Positions 1-13,617 of a stretch of 64,000 nucleotides of DNA are shown piece after piece. The notes below the pieces were generated by a model. The model made no database searches. It saw only the letters and a list, made by a program, of their open reading frames with translations, and was not told the DNA's origin. This DNA comes from Kutzneria chonburiensis (GTDB taxonomy: Bacteria > Actinomycetota > Actinomycetes > Mycobacteriales > Pseudonocardiaceae): the NCBI RefSeq assembly GCF_028622115.1, contig NZ_CP097263.1, forward strand, positions 8,877,501 to 8,941,500. Reading direction: 5' to 3'. The translations under genes were made by a program, and so were the position numbers. Numbering within the stretch: the stretch's first letter is position 1; each line of letters starts with the position of its first letter.

Positions 1-2
1 GC

Positions 3-323
3 GGCAACAAGGATTACGACGCGGTGATCGCCGAGGCGCTGGCCGAGGTGGGCCTGCCGGCCGAGCTGGCCGCCGCCGCGCACAGCACCGACTACGACGA
101 GGAGCTGCGCAAGAGCCACCACCGCGGCATGGACCCGGTCGGCGACGAGGTGGGCACGCCGACGATCCACATCGACGAGGTGGCCTACTTCGGCCCGGTG
201 CTGGCCTCGATCCCGCGCGGCGAGCGGGCGGCCGAGCTGTTCGACGCGGCTCGGGTGCTCGCCGGCTTCCCGCACTTCTTCGAGCTCAAGCGCAGCCGCA
301 ACGCGGATCTCGACTTCAGCTGA
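3..323 (+). CDS. DsbA-family mycothiol-dependent nitroreductase-like protein, 3' end only
   Basis: This is the C-terminal ~106 residues of a gene that begins before the window; the reading frame is open from base 3, so the GTG at 24 is not the real start. The visible part resembles the end of Rv2466c-type DsbA-fold oxidoreductases: a helical insert, then VGTPTIHID with the cis-Pro typical of the thioredoxin fold, and the ending [11 protein letters not shown]...DLDFS. Family members reduce nitro compounds or disulfides with mycothiol in the cytoplasm. The CXXC/CXXS active site would lie upstream and cannot be checked. A hairpin terminator follows directly, so the gene probably closes a unit separate from the phenazine operon. 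Confidence 0.8.
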
Positions 324-334
324 GCCATCCCTTC

Positions 335-368
335 AAACGGCCGTTCCCGCAAGGGGGCGGCCGTTTTT
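335..368 (+). terminator. Rho-independent terminator
   Basis: A perfect 9-bp stem (335-343 with 358-366, aaacggccg/cggccgttt) closes a 14-nt loop and runs into five T residues. It lies 12 nt after the stop of the nitroreductase-like gene and 30 nt before the phzD start, so it separates the two units. Confidence 0.85.
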
Positions 369-397
369 CATTGCCCGGAAACAGGGAGGAACGACCG

Positions 398-1057
398 ATG
401 CCCGGTCTGCCGACGATCGAGCCCTACCCGATGCCGAACGAGCGCGAGTGGCCGGCCAACATCGCCGGCTGGACGGTCGACCCCGACCGTGCCGTGCTGC
501 TCATCCACGACATGCAGCGTTACTTCCTACGACCTTTCGCGCCGGGCACCTCGCCACGCGAGCCGCTGGTGGCCAACACCGTTGCGCTGCGTGAACTCTG
601 TCGTGCACGAGGCGTGCCGGTGGCGTACACCGCGCAGCCCGGCTCCATGACGCCGGAGCAGCGCGGCCTGCTCAAGGACTTCTGGGGCCCGGGCATGAAG
701 GTCGACCCGGACAACCGGGCGGTGATCGACGAGCTGACACCGTCCGAAGAGGACTGGTTGCTGACCAAGTGGCGCTACAGCGCCTTCCACCGGTCCGACC
801 TGCTGGAGCGGATGAGGGCGCGCGGTCGTGACCAGCTCATCGTGTCCGGTGTGTACGCCAACATCGGCGTGCTGACCACCGCGGTGACGGCGTTCTCGCA
901 CGACATCGAGACGTTCTTCGTCGCCGACGCGGTGGCCGACTTCACCGCCGCCGACCACCGGCAGGCTCTCGCCTACGCGGCCCGCACCTGCGCCGTGGTC
1001 ACCGGCACGGCCCAGGTGCTCGACCAACTGGCCGCGCGGTCGCTGGCCACCGCGTGA
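398..1057 (+). CDS. phzD: Isochorismatase-type hydrolase PhzD
   Basis: 219 residues. PhzD removes pyruvate from 2-amino-2-deoxyisochorismate to give trans-2,3-dihydro-3-hydroxyanthranilic acid (DHHA), the second committed step to phenazines. The sequence closely follows known Phz[14 protein letters not shown] (Asp38), [28 protein letters not shown] (Lys124) and SGVYANIGV, where amidohydrolase relatives have a Cys and PhzD does not. The ATG at 398 was chosen over the one at 371 because GGGAGGA (384-390) lies 7 nt before it and homology begins here. It is the first gene of the operon and phzE starts 21 nt after it. No promoter was identified with certainty. Confidence 0.95.
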
Positions 1058-1078
1058 CCTCATCAGAAGGGACAGACC

Positions 1079-3277
1079 ATGGGCACTGACCTGCTTGAGC
1101 TGATCCTCGGCGGGCAGCCGCCGGCGTTCGCCCTGCTGCACCGGCCCGAGCGCACCGGTGCCGACGGCATCGACGTGCTGGTCGGCGAAGTGTCCGAAGT
1201 GGACACGCTGGCGGAGATCCCGCTGCGGGACATGGACGGGCACGACGTGCTGGCGATCATGCCGTACCGGCAGATCCGGGAGCGCGGCTATGCCAGCCCC
1301 GACGACGGCAGCCCACTGCTGGCGCTGACCGTGACCGGGCAGGAGGTCCGCTCCGTCGCGGAAGTGGCCAGAAGGCTGCCGGACGTGCCGATCACCATGT
1401 CCGGCGGGCGCTTCGACGTGGACGACGAGGCGTACGCCGACATCGTGCGGCGGGTGATCGGCGAGGAGATCGGCAACGGCGAAGGCGCGAACTTCGTCAT
1501 CAAGCGGTCCTTCGTCGCCGACATCACCGACTACACGCCGCGTGCCGCGCTGACCCTGTTCAACCGGTTGCTGCACCAGGAGAACGGCGCCTACTGGACG
1601 TTCATCGTGCACACCGGCGAGCGCACGTTCGTCGGCGCCACCCCGGAACGGCACATCAGCGTGCACGACGGCACCGCGGTGATGAACCCGATCAGCGGCA
1701 CCTACCGCTATCCGCGCACCGGCCCGGTGTTGCCCGAGGTGCTGGATTTCCTGGCCGATCCCAAGGAGACCGACGAGCTCTACATGGTGCTCGACGAGGA
1801 ACTCAAGATGATGGCCAAGGTGTGCCCGACCGGCGGCACGGTCGTCGGCCCGTACCTGCGCGAGATGGCCCAGCTGGCGCACACCGAGTACTTCATCGAG
1901 GGGCGGACCACGTTGGACCCGCGCGACATCCTGCGCGAGACCATGTTCGCCCCCACGGTCACCGGGAGCCCGCTGGAAAGCGCTTGCCGGGTGATCGAGC
2001 GCTTCGAGCCCCAGGGGCGCGGCTACTACAGCGGAGTCATCGCGCTGATCGGCCGTGACGGCAACGGGCAGCGGTCGCTGGACTCGTCGATTCTCATTCG
2101 TACGGCCGACATCTCCGCCGCCGGCCGGCTCCAGATCGGTGTCGGAGCGACGCTGGTCCGGCACTCCCATCCGGAGAGCGAGGTCGCCGAGACCACGGCC
2201 AAGGTCTCCGGCTTGCTGGCCGCGCTCGGTGCGCGCCACCGGCAGAGCTTCGCCACGCACCCCGAGGTGCAGGCGGCGTTGGCCCAGCGCAATGCCGACA
2301 TCGCCGGCTACTGGTTCGCGCAGCAGGAGTCCCGCGACGAGCCCGATCGCTCGCTGGCCGGCCGCGAGGTGTTGATCGTCGAGGCGGAGGACACGTTCAC
2401 CGCCATGATCGAGCTCCAGCTGAAGTCCATGGGGCTCAACGTGACCGTGCGGCGGTATGACGAGCCGTACACGTTCGACGGCTACGACTTCGTGGTGATG
2501 GGCCCCGGCCCTGGTGATCCCGGCGACCTCCAGCACCCCAAGATCGCCCATCTGCACCGGGCCATCGACACGCTGCTGACCGAGCGGCGGCCGTTCCTCG
2601 CGGTGTGCCTGAGCCACCAGGTGCTGTCCAGCCGGCTGGGCTTCCGGCTGGCCCGGCGGCCGACGCCGAACCAGGGCGTGCAGCTGGAGATCGACCTGTT
2701 CGGCCGGCGCGAGCGGGTCGGCTTCTACAACGCCTTCGCCGCGGTCAGCCCGGCCGACACCGTCGAATGCGGGCCGGCCGGGCTGGTCCAGGTCTGCCGC
2801 GACGGCGTCACCGGCGAGGTGCATGCCCTGCGCGGCACGCACTTCGCGTCCATGCAGTTCCACGCCGAGTCCGTGCTCACGCGCGACGGCGTCCGCATCA
2901 TCGGCACGCTACTGAAGGGGTTTTGGCTCATGCGCGTCATGATCGCATGGTGGGATCTCACTGAGTCGGGGCAGACCATCGAGTCGATGCGCGAGTACCT
3001 CCGCACCGAGGGCGCGCCGCCGTGGAACGGAATTCCCGGCCTGTACGAGAAGTTCTGGGTCTCCGACCCGGCGACCAACCGCTGGGGCGCGGTGATGATC
3101 TGGGAGCACGGCCCCGAGCCGGACCAGCCGCTGCCGCCGCACAAGGCGGCCGTGCTGATCGGCTATCCGCCGGTGCAGCGTAGCTGGTTCGACGTGGAGG
3201 CCACCGCGGAAGGCGGCCACTCACTGTCCACTTTGGCCGGTATCGGACTGGCCCTCGGCGTTGGGAGCCCGGCATGA
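1079..3277 (+). CDS. phzE: 2-amino-2-deoxyisochorismate synthase PhzE with extra C-terminal domain
   Basis: 732 residues; PhzE proteins usually have about 620-640. Residues 1 to ~420 are the chorismate-binding synthase domain (NPISGT, then TVTGSPLESACRVIE near 290). Residues ~425-615 are a class I glutamine amidotransferase with Cys510 (AVCLSHQ) and His595/Glu597 (FHAES), supplying ammonia. Together they convert chorismate and glutamine to ADIC. After ~617 the frame continues without a stop into ~115 residues beginning LMRVMIAWWDL, which look like a small ferredoxin-like alpha/beta-barrel (YdhR/antibiotic-monooxygenase type); this assignment is tentative. An ATG at 2930, preceded by gaagggg, could also start that domain separately. 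The 3' end overlaps phzG by 4 nt. Confidence 0.93.
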   Translation: MGTDLLELILGGQPPAFALLHRPERTGADGIDVLVGEVSEVDTLAEIPLRDMDGHDVLAIMPYRQIRERGYASPDDGSPLLALTVTGQEVRSVAEVARRLPDVPITMSGGRFDVDDEAYADIVRRVIGEEIGNGEGANFVIKRSFVADITDYTPRAALTLFNRLLHQENGAYWTFIVHTGERTFVGATPERHISVHDGTAVMNPISGTYRYPRTGPVLPEVLDFLADPKETDELYMVLDEELKMMAKVCPTGGTVVGPYLREMAQLAHTEYFIEGRTTLDPRDILRETMFAPTVTGSPLESACRVIERFEPQGRGYYSGVIALIGRDGNGQRSLDSSILIRTADISAAGRLQIGVGATLVRHSHPESEVAETTAKVSGLLAALGARHRQSFATHPEVQAALAQRNADIAGYWFAQQESRDEPDRSLAGREVLIVEAEDTFTAMIELQLKSMGLNVTVRRYDEPYTFDGYDFVVMGPGPGDPGDLQHPKIAHLHRAIDTLLTERRPFLAVCLSHQVLSSRLGFRLARRPTPNQGVQLEIDLFGRRERVGFYNAFAAVSPADTVECGPAGLVQVCRDGVTGEVHALRGTHFASMQFHAESVLTRDGVRIIGTLLKGFWLMRVMIAWWDLTESGQTIESMREYLRTEGAPPWNGIPGLYEKFWVSDPATNRWGAVMIWEHGPEPDQPLPPHKAAVLIGYPPVQRSWFDVEATAEGGHSLSTLAGIGLALGVGSPA

Positions 3278-3885
3278 CGGCCATCGATCCCGGTATCTCG
3301 ATCAGCGAGTTCGACTTCCCGCCCGAGGACCCGGAAACCGTGCTCCAGGCGTGGTTGCGGCAGGCCCCGGAGGCCGGCGTGAAGGTGCCGACGATCGTCG
3401 CGCTGGCCACCGCTGACGAGAAGGGCCGCAGCTCCAGCCGGATCATCCGGGCCCTGGAGGTCAGCACCCACGGCATCCTGTTCACCAGCCACAGCATCAG
3501 CCGGAAGAGCACCGAGATCCTGGCCACCGGCTGGGCTTCCGGCGTGCTGTACTGGCCGGAGACGGCCGAGCAGATCATCGTCGCCGGGCCGGCGTTTCCC
3601 ATCTCGGACAAGGAATCCGACCAGCTCTGGCACTCCCGTCCGCCGGCCCTGCACGCGATGTCGACGGCCTCGCGGCAAAGCGCTGTGTTGGACGACGAGG
3701 ACGAGCTTCGAAAGGCCGCACAGGATCTCGGCAGTGACGCGCTGCCGCGGCCCGACCGCTTCCTGGGTTATCGACTGGTGCCCAGCAGCATCGAGTTCTG
3801 GCGCTCCGGGCCGGGCGGTCTGCACCGCCGGCTGCGGTACGACCGCGCCGCGCACGGTTGGACCCACTGCCGGCTGCAGCCCTAG
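3274..3885 (+). CDS. phzG: FMN-dependent oxidase PhzG (PNPOx fold)
   Basis: 203 residues, of the pyridoxamine-5'-phosphate oxidase fold. PhzG uses FMN to oxidise hexahydro- and tetrahydrophenazine carboxylates, trapping the unstable condensation product as an aromatic or dihydro phenazine. Diagnostic stretches match characterised PhzG: PTIVALATAD near the N-terminus, SSSRIIRALE, GVLYWPETAEQIIVAG, and the PNPOx C-terminal signature EFW..G...LHRRLRYDR. The start overlaps the phzE stop (ATGA), implying coupled translation. The ehpF-like gene starts 8 nt after the stop. Confidence 0.93.
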   Translation: MTAIDPGISISEFDFPPEDPETVLQAWLRQAPEAGVKVPTIVALATADEKGRSSSRIIRALEVSTHGILFTSHSISRKSTEILATGWASGVLYWPETAEQIIVAGPAFPISDKESDQLWHSRPPALHAMSTASRQSAVLDDEDELRKAAQDLGSDALPRPDRFLGYRLVPSSIEFWRSGPGGLHRRLRYDRAAHGWTHCRLQP

Positions 3886-3893
3886 GAGAGATC

Positions 3894-4979
3894 ATGACCG
3901 ACATCCTCGACCTGCCCTTCGACGTCACGCCCGACCCGGACGAGTTCATCAAGGCAGCCATGGAATGGCACTTCAACCCGGAGACCGGGTCGCCGTTCTG
4001 GCTGCGCAAGGCCGAAACCCTGGACTTCGACCCGCGGGCCGACGTCAAGAGCCACCACGACCTGTGGCTGTTCCCCAACGTCACCAACGAACTCCGTGAC
4101 GTGCCGGCCCGCGATCTGCTGCCCCGGGCCTACGGCATCGGCGACGTGCTCGGCGTGTTCGAGAGCGGCGGCACCACCGGCGCCCCCAAGCGGGTGCTGT
4201 GCACCAAGGACTGGATGGCCAAGCTGCTGGACTGGAGCTGCGCCAACCTGGACCTGTTCGGCTTCCCCCAGGACGCCGACTGGCTGGGCGTGCTGCCGAC
4301 CGGCCCGCACATCGTCGGCGAGCTGTTCCGCCGCTCCGCGGCCGCCCGTGGCGGGCTGGGCTTCACCATCGACCTGGACCCGCGGTGGGTCAAGAAGGTC
4401 ATCGCCCAGGGCCGCCAGCGCGAGGCCGACGCGTACGCCGAGCACCTGATCGACCAGCTGGAGTTCGTGCTGCGCACGCAGCCCATCGGTGTGCTGACGA
4501 TCACCCCGCCGCTGCTGGAGCGGCTGGCCCGCCGGCCTGAGCTGGTCGACCTGGTCAACGACAAGGTCAAGGCCATCCGCTGGGGCGGAACGCAGCTCGA
4601 CCAGGACACCCGGGACGTCTACAAGAACGACATCTTCCCGGACGTCACGCTGTACGGGCACTACGGCAGCACGATGATCCTCGGCATCGCCGGCGAGCGG
4701 GCCGGCCTGACCGACGACGACCCGTGTGTGTTCGACACCTTCTCGCCGTACGTGACCTTCGCGGTGATCGACCCCAAGGCCCGCCGGCCGGTGCCGTACG
4801 GCGAGCGCGGCCAGGTGGTGATGAACCACGTCAGCAAGGCGCTGTTCCTGCCCAACAACCTGGAGCGCGACCTGGCCACCCGGATCGAGCCGCTGCCCGG
4901 CAAGGTCGGCGACGCCGTCGCCGGCATCGCCCCGGTCACCCGGTTCGAGGAGGAAGAAGTGATCGAAGGGGTGTACTGA
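3894..4979 (+). CDS. Truncated adenylate-forming enzyme, EhpF-like
   Basis: 361 residues from the ATG at 3894, which has AGGAGA about 5 nt upstream; the earlier in-frame ATG at 3858 lies inside phzG. The nucleotide-binding loop SGGTTGAPKRV is at 91-101, and LYGHYGSTM marks the adenine-binding motif. The protein ends where ANL enzymes would begin their C-terminal lid domain, so it is a short form like EhpF of Pantoea (D-alanylgriseoluteic acid pathway) and LuxE-type acyl-protein synthetases. EhpF is thought to activate a phenazine-1,6-dicarboxylate carboxyl for reduction. Inferred role: activation of a phenazine carboxylate for the aldehyde dehydrogenase encoded next (stop/start overlap at 4977-4981). 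Confidence 0.82.
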   Translation: MTDILDLPFDVTPDPDEFIKAAMEWHFNPETGSPFWLRKAETLDFDPRADVKSHHDLWLFPNVTNELRDVPARDLLPRAYGIGDVLGVFESGGTTGAPKRVLCTKDWMAKLLDWSCANLDLFGFPQDADWLGVLPTGPHIVGELFRRSAAARGGLGFTIDLDPRWVKKVIAQGRQREADAYAEHLIDQLEFVLRTQPIGVLTITPPLLERLARRPELVDLVNDKVKAIRWGGTQLDQDTRDVYKNDIFPDVTLYGHYGSTMILGIAGERAGLTDDDPCVFDTFSPYVTFAVIDPKARRPVPYGERGQVVMNHVSKALFLPNNLERDLATRIEPLPGKVGDAVAGIAPVTRFEEEEVIEGVY

Positions 4980-6337
4980 TGGCCGACCTGGACGCGTTGC
5001 TGCCCAACGGGAACTACCGCTCCCGCACGCGGACCGCCGTCACCGACGTGACCGGGGCCGAGGTGGCGCAGCTGAGCTCCGTGCCGACGCTGTTGGTCAC
5101 GCGGGCCATGGACACGTTGCGCGACACCGATCCGATGGAGCTGGACAAGCGGCTGGCAGCCTTGCGTTACGCTGGCGAGCTGTTCGCCACCGGCTCGGTG
5201 GACGGGATGCCGGCCGAGGAGTATTTCCTGCTGGCGGCCCGAATCGGCGGTCTGCCGATCACCGTGATTCGTGAGGGCGCGGAGGTCGCCGCTCGACGGT
5301 TGGCGCAGATTGGTGACAGCATCTCATTGGCCCGGCCCCATGGTGCGGTCGCCGATTGGCGGGATGCCCGGACATGCAAGGGAAGCGCGGTCTGGACCCG
5401 GCGCGGCGAGGTGTTTTCCGTGCACGCATCGGGCACGCACCCCGGCGCGCACAGCCTGTGGCCGGAAGCGTTGGCGCTGGGTTACCGGGTCGCCGTGCGG
5501 CCGACGCGACGTGAACCGCTGACGCCGTACCGAATGGTGGCGGCGCTGCGGGCCGCCGGCTTCGGCCCGGACCAGGTGGTGCTGCTCCCGACCGATCAGG
5601 CCGCCGGCGATGCCATCCTGGCCGGCGCCGATCTGGCCTACGGCGGCGACGACATCATCCGCAAGTACGCCGACGATCCCGCTGTCCTGCAACAGCAACC
5701 GGGCCGGTCGAAGATCTTGATCACCGAGGACGTCGACTGGCGCGACTACGTCGACGTGATCGTGTCGTCAGTGGCCAACCACGCCGGCGGTGGTTGCGTG
5801 AACACCACAGGCGTGTTGGTCGAGGGCGATCCGACGCCGCTGGCCGAGGCCGTGGCTTCGCGGCTGGCCGAGTTGCCGAGCCTGCCACCGGAGCACCCGG
5901 ACGCCGTGCTTCCCGTGCAGCAGCTGGCTTCCGCGCAGGCGCTGGACCGATTCCTGCGCAGCAAGGCCGAAGGCACGCGTTCGTGGCTGGGCGGCGACGG
6001 CATCCTTCACGACCTCGGCGACGGCAGCGCCGTGCTGCGGCCGGCCGTGCACCAGGTCGACCGGCCCGATTCGCCGCAGCTCGGCGCGGAAATGCCGTTC
6101 CCGTGCGTGTGGATCGGGCCGTGGATCAGGGCCGACGGCATCGAGCCGTTGCAGGACACGCTCGTGCTCACCGTGGCCACCGAGGACGAGCGCCTTGTCG
6201 ACCAGCTCATGGCCGAACCCGGCATCGGCAACGTGTTCGTCGGCCGGCATCCGACCCACTGGACCGAGCCCGGCCTGCCGCACGACGGCTACCTCGCGGA
6301 CTTCCTGATGCGCACCAAGAGCGTCATCCGCGGCTGA
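4979..6337 (+). CDS. Aldehyde dehydrogenase/acyl reductase, EhpG/LuxC-like
   Basis: 452 residues, aldehyde dehydrogenase superfamily. The likely catalytic cysteine is Cys273 in NHAGGGCVNTTG, following KILITEDVDW; the N-terminal half carries a Rossmann-like NAD(P)-binding region (VHASGTHPGAHSLWPEALALG). ATG overlaps the preceding stop (TGATG). Such a dehydrogenase next to a truncated adenylating enzyme is the arrangement of ehpF-ehpG and luxE-luxC, where an activated carboxylate is reduced to an aldehyde. Here the substrate is inferred to be phenazine-1,6-dicarboxylic acid or a related carboxylate, giving a formyl-phenazine. This fits the phz context but is not shown by the sequence alone. Confidence 0.82.
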   Translation: MADLDALLPNGNYRSRTRTAVTDVTGAEVAQLSSVPTLLVTRAMDTLRDTDPMELDKRLAALRYAGELFATGSVDGMPAEEYFLLAARIGGLPITVIREGAEVAARRLAQIGDSISLARPHGAVADWRDARTCKGSAVWTRRGEVFSVHASGTHPGAHSLWPEALALGYRVAVRPTRREPLTPYRMVAALRAAGFGPDQVVLLPTDQAAGDAILAGADLAYGGDDIIRKYADDPAVLQQQPGRSKILITEDVDWRDYVDVIVSSVANHAGGGCVNTTGVLVEGDPTPLAEAVASRLAELPSLPPEHPDAVLPVQQLASAQALDRFLRSKAEGTRSWLGGDGILHDLGDGSAVLRPAVHQVDRPDSPQLGAEMPFPCVWIGPWIRADGIEPLQDTLVLTVATEDERLVDQLMAEPGIGNVFVGRHPTHWTEPGLPHDGYLADFLMRTKSVIRG

Positions 6338-6354
6338 ACCAAGGAGGATTTCGT

Positions 6355-7236
6355 ATGGCTACAGTCGTCGCGGTCGACCGGCATCGCGCCGGCACGCAGG
6401 CCCGGCGCTACGTGGTGGCCGACGTGTTCGCCACCACCCCGCTGCTGGGCAACCCGGTGGCGGTGTTCCTGGACAGCGAGGGCCTGTCCACCGAACGCAT
6501 GCAGCAGATCGCCCGTGAGATGAACCTGTCGGAGACGACTTTCGTGCTGCCGCCGGACAAAGGCGGCTATCGGCGGGTGCGGATCTTCACGCCGGTCAAC
6601 GAGCTGCCGTTCGCCGGGCATCCGCTGCTCGGCACGGCTATCGCGCTGGCCGACGCGGATCCGGTGGACAGTATGGAATTGGAGACCCACGAGGCCACGA
6701 TTCCGTTCACCTTCACCCGATCCGTGGAGGGCGTGCTGTCCGCGACCATGCGGCAGCCGGTGCCGGAATGGCAGCCGTACGAGCTGTTGGACACGCTGCT
6801 CGAAGGGATTCATGTCACGGATCCGATCCTGCCGGTCGAGGTGTACCGGAATGGTCCTCGGCACGTTTTCGTTGGCGTTTCGGATATTCCAGCCCTGAGT
6901 GCGATCCGGCCCGACCTGCTGGTGCTGGCCAAGCTGCCGAACGTGGCGGTGAACTGCTTCGCCGGCAGCGGATACCGTTGGCGCAGCCGAATGTTCTCGC
7001 CGGCTTATGGAGTCGCCGAGGACGCTGCCACCGGGTCGGCCGCCGGTCCGCTGGCCGTGCACCTGGCCCGGCACGGGCTGATCGAGTTCGGCCGGCAGAT
7101 CGAGATCAAGCAGGGTGTCGAGATGGGGCGCCCGTCCACCATGCTGGCCACCGCCTTCGGCTCGGCGAACCGCATCGAACGGGTGGAGGTGGCGGGCTCG
7201 GCGGTCGTCGTGGCCCGCGGTTCGCTCTACGTCTAA
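6355..7236 (+). CDS. phzF: DHHA isomerase PhzF
   Basis: 293 residues from the ATG at 6355, with a strong AAGGAGGA 6 nt upstream. PhzF isomerises DHHA to the ketone that condenses in pairs to form the phenazine skeleton. It has the diaminopimelate-epimerase-like fold. Conserved active-site positions are present: Glu60 in NLSETTF, His89 in FAGHPLLGT and Asp223 in EDAATGSAAG. The ~15 residues before RRYVVADVFA are longer than usual for the family. With phzD, phzE and phzG it completes the chemistry from chorismate to a phenazine, apart from the PhzA/B condensation helper. Confidence 0.94.
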   Translation: MATVVAVDRHRAGTQARRYVVADVFATTPLLGNPVAVFLDSEGLSTERMQQIAREMNLSETTFVLPPDKGGYRRVRIFTPVNELPFAGHPLLGTAIALADADPVDSMELETHEATIPFTFTRSVEGVLSATMRQPVPEWQPYELLDTLLEGIHVTDPILPVEVYRNGPRHVFVGVSDIPALSAIRPDLLVLAKLPNVAVNCFAGSGYRWRSRMFSPAYGVAEDAATGSAAGPLAVHLARHGLIEFGRQIEIKQGVEMGRPSTMLATAFGSANRIERVEVAGSAVVVARGSLYV

Positions 7237-7246
7237 GGGAAGGCCC

Positions 7247-10838
<3,592 letters not shown>

Positions 10839-10861
10839 CTTCAACTCCGTGAGGTGTCTCG

Positions 10862-12523
10862 ATGACCCTGTCCGTTGACACGATCCTGTCGCCGCAACAA
10901 CGCGCCGCGCTGGCCGCCGACCCGGCCGTCGGCGGCGGCAACCTGCTGCCCTCGGCGATCAAGGCCAATGCCCACCCGGATCAGCCTTTCCTGCACTCGG
11001 TCCGCCCGATCACCACCACCGACGGGCAGCCGCAGCACACCTTCACCTTGCTGGAACTGGACCAATTGGTCCAGAGCTGGTCGGTGTTCTACCTGAGCAA
11101 GGGCGTGCAGCCGCGCGACCGCGTCGCCGTGCACATCGAGGACTCGTACGCCTACTCGGTGCACTTCCACGCCCTGGCCCAGATCGGCGCCATCGGCGTG
11201 CTGATCAACAGTCGGGCCAGCGAGTTCATCGCCCGGTCGCTGCTGGCCCAGACCACTCCGGTCGGCCTGTACGTCGACCGGGAACGCCTCGCCCAGCTGG
11301 GTGAGCTGCCCGAGCTGGCCTGGGTCGTCGTCGCCGAGGACGTCCCCGCGCCGCCGGCCGCCGAGCTGGCCCACGCCGACCGTTTCCGGCACGTCGCCGA
11401 GGACCCGGTGGTCATCCTGCACTCCTCCGGCACCACGGGCGTGCCCAAGCCGACCATCCACACTCATGAGTCCATCGCCGCCGGGCCCAAGTTCCGGTTG
11501 GTGGACCACAAGGAGCGGCCCGGCGCGGTCACGCTGACCGGTCTGCCCCAGTCGCACCTGGGCTGCATCGCGTACAGCACCTACGCCGTGCTCGCCGGCG
11601 CCAACACCATCGCCGGCCGTGACTACAGCGGCGCGGATCTGATCGACGCGGTTCTCGAGCACCGGCCGACGGCCGTGATGTCCTTCGCCCACGCCTATTC
11701 CGAGATTCCCGCCCTGTCCCTGGAGCCGGGAACCGTTGACTCCGTTGACTTCTGGGTGTCCATCGGCGACGCTGTGCACGAGGCGCACATCCATCACCTG
11801 CTGCGCCAGCGATCGTCGGACCGTCCCGAAGCGACCTTCCTGGACCGGCTCGGCACCACCGAGCTCGGCTGGGGCGCGCTGCTCAAGGCCCGGACGTTGA
11901 GCACCGAACGCAACGACCGCTGTGCCGGCCAGCCGGTCGGCGTCTCCGAGGTCGCCATCCTGCGCAAGGACGGCTCGTTCGCCGACGCCAACGAGGTCGG
12001 CCTGCTGGCCGCCAGGGGCCCGGCGATCACGCCCGGCTACTGGGGCAACTCCGACCTCACGTACCGGTTCCGGCTCGGCGGCTACTGGCTGACCGGCGAC
12101 AACGCCTACCGCGACGAGCACGGCGACCACTTCCTGGTCGACCGGACCGTGGACGCCATCGAGACCCCGCAGGGCACCGGCTACTCGGTGTTCATGGAGG
12201 AGGCGATCCTCTCCGACGTGCCCGACGTCGTCGATATCGCCGTCATCGCCGGCCGGGCCGGTGCCGCGGTGGTGCCGGTCGCCGTCGTGACCGTCCGGGC
12301 CGAGGTCGAGGCCGAGAAGCTGTTGCGGCTGGCCAACGAGGCCCTCGCGGCGGCCGGGCACCTCCAGCTCGGGGTGCTCGAGATCGCCGCGGGCGACGAG
12401 GACCTGCCCGTCGGTGTCACCGGCAAGGTGCTCAAGCGCCAGCTCCGCGAGAAGTACTCCGATCTTGCCACTTATGTCTCCACCCACACCGGGGCGGCGG
12501 TCGCCGTCCAGGGCCAGCTGTAG
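10862..12523 (+). CDS. Stand-alone adenylate-forming ligase (acyl/aryl-CoA ligase type)
   Basis: 553 residues, full-length ANL enzyme. The phosphate loop HSSGTTGVPKP starts at 187, GYWLTGDNAYRDE gives the hinge-side Asp, and VTGKVLKRQLRE supplies the C-terminal catalytic lysine (Lys522). It should activate a carboxylic acid as the acyl-adenylate and pass it to CoA or another acceptor. Substrate cannot be read from the sequence; a phenazine carboxylate or an aminoaryl acid from this operon are both reasonable. No carrier-protein domain is attached and no condensation or ketosynthase gene is in the window. It starts 23 nt after papC with GAGGTG upstream. Confidence 0.85.
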   Translation: MTLSVDTILSPQQRAALAADPAVGGGNLLPSAIKANAHPDQPFLHSVRPITTTDGQPQHTFTLLELDQLVQSWSVFYLSKGVQPRDRVAVHIEDSYAYSVHFHALAQIGAIGVLINSRASEFIARSLLAQTTPVGLYVDRERLAQLGELPELAWVVVAEDVPAPPAAELAHADRFRHVAEDPVVILHSSGTTGVPKPTIHTHESIAAGPKFRLVDHKERPGAVTLTGLPQSHLGCIAYSTYAVLAGANTIAGRDYSGADLIDAVLEHRPTAVMSFAHAYSEIPALSLEPGTVDSVDFWVSIGDAVHEAHIHHLLRQRSSDRPEATFLDRLGTTELGWGALLKARTLSTERNDRCAGQPVGVSEVAILRKDGSFADANEVGLLAARGPAITPGYWGNSDLTYRFRLGGYWLTGDNAYRDEHGDHFLVDRTVDAIETPQGTGYSVFMEEAILSDVPDVVDIAVIAGRAGAAVVPVAVVTVRAEVEAEKLLRLANEALAAAGHLQLGVLEIAAGDEDLPVGVTGKVLKRQLREKYSDLATYVSTHTGAAVAVQGQL

Positions 12524-12555
12524 CGACCGCCTCCGTCAGGGAAGGGATAACCCCC

Positions 12556-13617
12556 ATGTCCAGCACCGTCATGGTCTTCGACACCGCCGTCTCGGACGAG
12601 CAGATCCAGGCTTGGCAGCACCACTTCGAGCTGGCCGGCGCCCGCTCCGCCGCGTACCGACTCGGCTCGACGCCCGTGCTCGTCGCCCCGGACGTGCCGC
12701 ACGACACCGCCGTCTCCGGCTGGCTGCCCCGTCCGATCCGCGAGGTGCCGCTGACCGGCGAGATCCGCCTCCCCGACCGGGCGCTGCGTCCCGAGGGGAC
12801 CGTGGTGCGGATCGGGCCGGCCACCATCGGCGACGGCACCATCAACGTGTTCGCCGGGCCGTGCGCCGTCGAGACCCGCGAGCAGCTGTTCGCCAGCGCC
12901 GACGCCGTCGCCCAATGCGGTGTCGTCGGCCTGCGCGGCGGGGCTTTCAAGCCCCGGACCTCGCCCTACAGCTTCCAGGGCCTGCGTTGGGACGGCCTCG
13001 ACCTGCTCGCCGAGGCCCGGGAGCGGACCGGCCTGCCCATCGTCACCGAGGTCGTCCAGCCCGACCACGTGGAGCGGGTCGCCGCCACCGCCGACGCCCT
13101 CCAGATCGGCGCCCGCAACATGCAGAACTTCTCCCTGCTCACCGCGGCCGGCCAGGCCGGCATCCCGGTCGTGCTCAAGCGCGGCTTCGGCGTCACCATC
13201 GACGAGACCCTCGGCGCCGCGGAGTACCTGCTCAACGCCGGCAACGACCAGGTCGTCATCTGCGAGCGCGGCATCCGCACCTTCGAGACCGCCACCCGCT
13301 TCACCCTCGACCTGTCCGCGGTCGCCGTCTTCAAGCAGCGTTCCCACCTGCCGGTCATGGTCGATCCCAGCCACGCCGCCGGCATCCCCTCCCTGGTCGA
13401 GCCGCTCACCCTGGCCGCCGCCGCGGTCGGCGCCGACGCCCTGCTCATTGACGTGCACATCCGTCCCGAGCAGGCTCTGTGCGACGGCAAGCAGGCCATG
13501 CTGCCGACCGACTTCGCCCAGCTCATGGGCAAGCTGGAGATGCTGGCCATGGGCATCGGCCGCAAGATGGGCAACGTCGCCCGAGCCGACATCGGCGAGC
13601 TGCTGGCGCAGGTCTGA
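12556..13617 (+). CDS. 3-deoxy-D-arabino-heptulosonate-7-phosphate synthase, type I-beta
   Basis: 353 residues. The TIM-barrel begins around 95 and contains FAGPCAVE (metal-ligand Cys103), RGGAFKPRTSPYSFQG, GARNMQNF, VLKRGFG and VMVDPSHAAG. The preceding ~90 residues correspond to the N-terminal ferredoxin-like regulatory domain of the Thermotoga/Bacillus-type enzyme. It joins phosphoenolpyruvate and erythrose-4-phosphate at the head of the shikimate pathway. Phenazine operons often carry a type II DAHP synthase (PhzC); here a different family appears to fill that role. Probably the last gene of the operon: a palindromic element (13631-13686) follows 13 nt after the stop. Confidence 0.93.
   Translation: MSSTVMVFDTAVSDEQIQAWQHHFELAGARSAAYRLGSTPVLVAPDVPHDTAVSGWLPRPIREVPLTGEIRLPDRALRPEGTVVRIGPATIGDGTINVFAGPCAVETREQLFASADAVAQCGVVGLRGGAFKPRTSPYSFQGLRWDGLDLLAEARERTGLPIVTEVVQPDHVERVAATADALQIGARNMQNFSLLTAAGQAGIPVVLKRGFGVTIDETLGAAEYLLNAGNDQVVICERGIRTFETATRFTLDLSAVAVFKQRSHLPVMVDPSHAAGIPSLVEPLTLAAAAVGADALLIDVHIRPEQALCDGKQAMLPTDFAQLMGKLEMLAMGIGRKMGNVARADIGELLAQV

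Follow-up and report, generated by a model that had tools for sequence, protein, structure and literature searches.

The 115 residues that follow PhzE in a single open frame of this Kutzneria chonburiensis assembly are likely to be the product of a NosA-like small gene (2930-3277), which is separate from phzE in relatives and was joined to it here by an artefact at the junction or by a recent mutation. The small gene looks like an under-recognised part of phenazine and DHHA-type clusters, and its fusion to phzE is probably artefactual.

The start of the window (the whole 64,000-nucleotide stretch of DNA analysed) lies inside a phenazine cluster. In its closest relative, L028 (82% identical), the gene order is the same, namely phzA/B, phzD, phzE, the small gene, phzG, adenylating enzyme, aldehyde dehydrogenase and phzF. 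The features of the window are as follows.

398..1057, + strand: phzD, isochorismatase family (Pfam 2.3e-40)
1079..2964, + strand: phzE; the printed frame continues to 3277, and the frame matching the PhzE end of L028 stops at 2962-2964
2914..2924, + strand: junction gaaggggtttt, one base shorter than in L028 (DNA alignment)
2915..2920, + strand: purine-rich box, likely ribosome site of the NosA-like small gene (from sequence; L028 has aaggaggt at the equivalent place)
2930..3277, + strand: NosA-like small gene of 115 aa, which this assembly places in the phzE frame (phmmer match to NosA; relatives; K41)
3274..3885, + strand: phzG, whose start overlaps the stop of the small gene by 4 nt (Pfam)
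3894..4979, + strand: adenylating enzyme of a type that other phenazine clusters combine with an aldehyde dehydrogenase (Pfam AMP-binding 9.5e-8)
4976..6337, + strand: aldehyde dehydrogenase partner (Pfam 4.3e-12)
6334..7236, + strand: phzF (Pfam 8.8e-71)
12556..13617, + strand: DAHP synthase, in the role of phzC (Pfam 2.2e-71)

Downstream of phzF are found a chorismate mutase, an ADC-synthase-like protein, a dehydrogenase and an AMP ligase, followed by the DAHP synthase. The set of chorismate mutase, ADC-synthase-like and prephenate-dehydrogenase-like genes after phzF (7301-10838) presumably resembles those of 4-aminophenylalanine pathways. The ADC-synthase-like gene (7606-9963) carries at its 3' end a 30-bp tandem repeat (9679-9914, 7.9 copies), which gives a repetitive tail of the 10-residue type. 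A second PhzE homologue is present elsewhere in the genome (G000:C1:9826518-9828266). Rfam detected no RNA element at gathering score in window positions 1-13000.

The printed frame (1079-3277, + strand, 732 aa) is composed of a phzE part, matching Chorismate_bind (6.7e-41) and GATase (9.4e-21) of Pfam, and of the NosA-like tail at residues 618-732. This bears out the sequence-only reading, which had the frame run past the normal PhzE end and had placed at the junction a start codon with a purine-rich box; ATG 2930 is indeed preceded by aagggg at 2915-2920. In L028 phzE is read in a different frame and stops 35 nt into the small gene. Alignment of the window and L028 DNA over the junction region shows a sole inner gap, one base fewer in the window, within 2917-2920; at the junction four consecutive G are followed by four T. 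An ORF in the other frame of the window (2605-2964) terminates in VLAHARHDRMVGSH and a stop, the counterpart of the L028 PhzE end VAEHARHGRVVGSR and its stop. The earlier reading had named a one-nucleotide error here, restoring a PhzE stop, as counting against its idea: the one-base difference from L028 was found, and it is probably such an error.

An alignment of 8 sequences was used to scan one genome per species of 84,980 species, giving 96 relatives, the best 80 of which were kept as loci. Among these best 80 of 96, phzE is within the locus in 69: the small gene lies directly behind it in 57, phzE is on the opposite strand and away from the small gene in 10 and elsewhere on the same strand in 2; in the other 11 it is out of reach. 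Forty of the 57 adjacent loci show an overlap with phzE of exactly 4 nt, and in none of the 57 are the two genes fused. Across the same best 80 of 96, at least one core phz gene is present in 74 loci (phzA/B in 61, phzD in 66, phzF in 60, phzG in 59), and the pair of adenylating enzyme and aldehyde dehydrogenase in 18. The phzE-coupled small gene was found in actinomycetes, Lysobacter, Dyella, Burkholderia, Rhizobium and Nostoc, with more copies adjoining phzE on plasmids of Burkholderia ubonensis and Rhizobium. As judged from sequence, 2930-3277 is a gene type that is separate in relatives and mostly overlaps or abuts phzE.

It had been claimed that residues 618-732 have strong local identity of their own, and they do belong to a real family, given the phmmer match to NosA (8.1e-19), the 96 homologues of the scan, and a dN/dS between window and L028 of 0.22. 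Over 598 codons of phzE the value is 0.21, and phzG gives 0.20; the NosA-like small gene is under selection, the same as these two genes. The idea of an extra C-terminal domain tethered to PhzE did not survive the comparison: the barrel is not a recurrent PhzE domain in the adjacent loci, and the joining coincides with the one-base difference. The accompanying suggestion of a possible separate protein agrees with the stand-alone gene of the relatives, but in this assembly the gene is joined in frame. In a tree of 88 sequences the window groups with L028 (100/100); no origin story is drawn, because long branches and the midpoint root leave the NosA-type, Rhodococcus and E. coli rows insecurely placed.

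The genome shows other frame breaks. Among 183 matches to three families (8 Chorismate_bind, 64 P450 and 111 AMP-binding), five genes, picked by eye from the match tables, each appear as two abutting matches that differ in frame; in four of the five the break coincides with five consecutive G or C. One is the isochorismate-synthase-like gene L025 (G000:C1:6803868-6804610), frame-split at a five-C run inside its GGTP motif, and AMP-binding and P450 genes are similar. Two matches close to the start of the contig (5,677 and 8,875) have same-strand counterparts, equally offset, close to its end (10,407,538 and 10,410,736); these P450 and AMP-binding matches at the ends of G000:C1 look as if a circular contig had kept about 9 kb of untrimmed overlap. 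Since five other conserved genes of the genome show frame breaks, the fusion is probably an assembly error and otherwise a recent mutation. Frame breaks, junction runs and repeated contig ends together favour the former, short of proof. We consider an assembly error the probable source of the missing junction base and a true recent mutation a clearly less probable one. In either case the in-frame joining to PhzE would likely come from this one base, and the small protein would likely be made from its own ATG at 2930.

That a genuine covalent fusion arose in this strain, with the barrel as a tethered PhzE domain, appears rather unlikely. It would fit the printed frame, which is open, and the joining of the same domain to PhzF on Rhodococcus plasmids; the genome could also be correct here, real indels occurring too. 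Against it stand the lack of any phzE fusion among the 57 adjacent relatives (best 80 of 96), the persistence of the usual PhzE tail in the other frame and the further frame breaks on the same contig.

Residues 618-732 gave NosA (4za1) in a phmmer search of PDB, with the E-value stated above. An AlphaFold monomer model was built from a 42-row alignment (mean pLDDT 82). With this model NosA was the best match both in Foldseek (1.4e-8) and in VIA (Z 11.7, rmsd 2.5 over 91 residues, 35% identity), the VIA runners-up being HapK (9.1) and other barrels (at most 8.7). The VIA rows below NosA and HapK were set aside as general barrel matches only. The modelled monomer is closest in fold to NosA, a dimeric alpha/beta-barrel protein, and the ABM/YdhR-type barrel proposed from the letters is supported by Foldseek and VIA on the model. 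Of the residues aligned with NosA, K41 (NosA K49) is kept in all 86 sequences, E90 (NosA E101) in 80 of 86, with two D, two H, one Q and one A as exceptions, and R21 (NosA R29) in 79 of 86. The C-terminal loop of NosA (112-151) is absent, the window protein ending at residue 115, which in the model is some 20 residues beyond the final strand of the barrel. The small-gene product is, on the sequence matches and the predicted model, a NosA-like alpha/beta-barrel protein.

Library models cover this NosA-like small-gene family poorly. The window protein matches YdhR (PF08803) of Pfam with 16.3 bits, below the gathering cut-off of 27.1; YdhR matches 21 of 42 family members at E 0.01 or better (best 6.2e-7), and NCBIfam 8 of 42 (best 8.9e-4). 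There was no match of the window protein to ABM (PF03992) at E 1 or better, and none to PhzA/B (PF03284).

The sequence-only reading had taken PhzA/B to be missing and the barrel to be its possible stand-in. PhzA/B is present about 0.85 kb before window base 1, in a separate gene at G000:C1:8876177-8876656 (PF03284, 6.6e-78) which is the only match of the genome, and a ketosynthase is found further upstream. Replacement of PhzA/B in ring coupling by the NosA-like protein would have in its favour only that the window itself shows no phzA/B, and it is highly improbable: besides the upstream gene, phzA/B accompanies the small gene in 61 of the best 80 of 96 loci. Nineteen draft genomes, chosen mostly for an unusual-looking locus, were tested for PhzA/B, and six (L069, L098, L099, L100, L102 and L103) have phzD, phzE and the small gene without true PhzA/B (five with none, one with a weak 26-bit match); none of the six has phzF in the locus. 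The neighbours in these loci include a class-II DAHP synthase (L098, L100, L102), an SDR (L098, L100), EPSP synthase and an FAD hydroxylase (L098, L102) and KAS III (L100). Loci of this type we read, from their gene content, as possible routes from DHHA to aminobenzoate rather than to phenazine. Given the upstream PhzA/B, the gene in the six drafts without true PhzA/B and the PhzF fusion in Rhodococcus, the small protein is therefore no stand-in for PhzA/B.

The NosA-like small gene is frequent and not universal, being near PhzA/B in only five of eight genomes of the window's order and not found in the fetched stretches of several plasmid clusters. These eight are the genomes with a strong PhzA/B (above 230 bits) among 397 of the order; the small gene lies within about 3 kb of PhzA/B in the five, two have a distant NosA-like match only and one has none. 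It was not found in the fetched phzA/B plasmid clusters of Pantoea, Xenorhabdus, Embleya and four Streptomyces records. The genus (7 genomes) has 12 phzE-like loci, and within the fetched stretches the small gene is in the window's own only. On the Rhodococcus plasmid L017 (7980-9164) a diverged NosA-like domain forms the N-terminus of PhzF in a 394-aa fusion, and five other Rhodococcus plasmid records also match under PhzF. An E. coli plasmid (L159, 5135-14590) carries a phenazine cluster with phzA/B, phzD, phzE, a diverged small gene (5.6e-22), phzF and phzG, together with an adenylating enzyme, an aldehyde dehydrogenase and the start of an NRPS gene.

Two further associations were considered and dropped. 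PhzD was present in 12 of 12 genomes tested, and replacement of PhzD by the small protein was rejected, as L094 and L096, without phzD in the locus, both have phzD elsewhere in the genome. As to a link with product type (one PhzA/B copy, dicarboxylate-type phenazines), 63 of 84 gene-bearing loci hold phzA/B, 62 with one copy and one with two, and two copies are annotated in four Streptomyces plasmid clusters that lack the small gene within the cluster. This link is not built on because in Pantoea and Xenorhabdus a single copy goes with no small gene in the stretch fetched, and on the S. camelliae plasmid the small gene lies elsewhere.

A part for the NosA-like protein early in the pathway is suggested by its coupling to phzE and its fusion to PhzF, by the presence of PhzD in all genomes tested and by the six of 19 drafts that have phzD, phzE and the small gene without true PhzA/B. 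As a tentative proposal, the small protein may be a cofactor-free acid-base enzyme acting on an early intermediate of the PhzE-PhzD-PhzF leg, using Lys41 and Glu90 in the manner of Lys49 and Glu101 of NosA. Its target would be an enol, enamine or carboxyvinyl group of an early ring intermediate (ADIC, DHHA, the PhzF product or a by-product), which it would either protonate and hydrolyse or tautomerise, and its role would be distinct from the ring coupling of PhzA/B. NosA and PhzD may, we infer, have common chemistry in the release of pyruvate from a carboxyvinyl group, and a Lys/Glu pair would suit the proton transfer. More doubtful is the wider form of this proposal, in which many phenazine and related DHHA-pathway clusters outside the classic pseudomonad operon would have an overlooked NosA-type acid-base catalyst, shared with thiopeptide maturation. 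Next to PhzD and PhzF it would carry out a second step that releases pyruvate or tautomerises, on the carboxyvinyl, enol or enamine group of an aminocyclohexadiene intermediate (ADIC, DHHA or the PhzF product). Points against the explanation as a whole are the incomplete spread of the gene, the H, D, Q or A at position 90 in six of 86 sequences, the absence of the loop on which NosA activity depends, and the placing of phzE on the opposite strand in 10 of the best 80 of 96 loci.

In the part of the source available, the limazepine enzymes Lim6 and Lim5, homologues of PhzE and PhzD, make DHHA in vitro without a NosA-like protein (PMC5958127). A strict need for the small protein in DHHA formation was rejected on this ground and on that of the clusters without the gene. 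The same in vitro result speaks against a non-catalytic partner that would stabilise PhzE or hand its labile product to PhzD and PhzF, a role we regard as unlikely. Adjacency to phzE in 57 of the best 80 of 96 loci and the PhzF fusion in Rhodococcus would be in keeping with such a partner; the invariant Lys and nearly invariant Glu at the NosA catalytic positions, and the ten loci of these 80 with phzE on the opposite strand, are not. Less likely again is a role such as that of TcmH, Mpz8, LaPhzX or PumA, as an ABM-type protein that serves as cofactor-free monooxygenase or in self-protection. The fold class is the same, and such proteins, in the sources as far as available, occur in phenazine clusters; yet ABM is not matched at E 1 or better, a true ABM protein is encoded in Rhodococcus L017 in addition to the NosA-like domain, and the closest relative of characterised function, NosA, is hydrolytic. 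An acid-base enzyme, at its tentative grade, is the reading that we prefer.

The usual account of how the phenazine core is made runs from phzA to phzG. It leaves a gap where this conserved small protein belongs, which is coupled to phzE and has catalytic residues of the NosA type; the gap would bear on the production of phenazines in heterologous hosts and on the assignment of products. No functional test of the small-gene family was found in the literature searched, most subscription papers lying outside it, and no paper was found there that treats phzE of a phenazine gene cluster together with nosA. Among the available parts of PMC4549113, PMC3326630, PMC4044012, PMC7927275, PMC5958127, PMC6265801, PMC11206028, PMC12814520, PMC5712208, PMC7143476 and PMC4525488, a homologue is visible only in PMC7143476, as annotation. 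The lomofungin gene table, in the portion available, has no gene between lphzE and lphzF (PMC4549113); L072, another S. lomondensis strain, has the small gene at the position that is blank in that table. For Mpz5, which is PhzF in the JBIR-46 cluster, the accessible text states a length of 388 aa (PMC4044012), and our guess, from this length only and by comparison with the 394-aa Rhodococcus fusion, is that it may hold a NosA-like domain.

Of the known systems, NosA, the nosiheptide terminal amide synthase (PDB 4za1; with NocA, PbtH, TpdK and BerI), is the best match by both sequence and fold, and the positions of its catalytic Lys49 and Glu101 are kept as K41 and E90. According to the available part of its description, NosA is a dimer in solution, cleaves a terminal dehydroalanine to give the amide and pyruvate, and needs K49, E101 and the C-terminal loop, K49A possibly also disturbing folding in the view of its authors (PMC4525488). 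The two proteins differ in length, NosA having 151 aa with a 40-residue C-terminal loop and the window protein 115 aa without it, and in their surroundings, which are thiopeptide genes for NosA; for the window protein no thiopeptide gene was found, the neighbours to 13.6 kb and the scanned upstream genes being of phenazine type. The YdhR family (PF08803) has the same fold class and matches weakly, the window protein falling below the cut-off. LaPhzX, Mpz8 and PumA, ABM proteins of phenazine clusters, share the broad fold class and the kind of cluster; they are described, in the sources as available, as ActVA-Orf6/TcmH-like, whereas the window protein has no ABM match, and Rhodococcus L017 holds both a true ABM protein and a NosA-like domain. 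A counterpart is found in the dermacozine cluster of Dermacoccus abyssi, where the accessible part of the report lists, by annotation only, a 306-bp hypothetical gene between phzE and phzG labelled 'thio_amide' and 'YdhR family' (PMC7143476). The best hit given there for this gene belongs to Streptomyces sp. uw30 (PMC7143476), and the uw30 copy is L049 of the present set.
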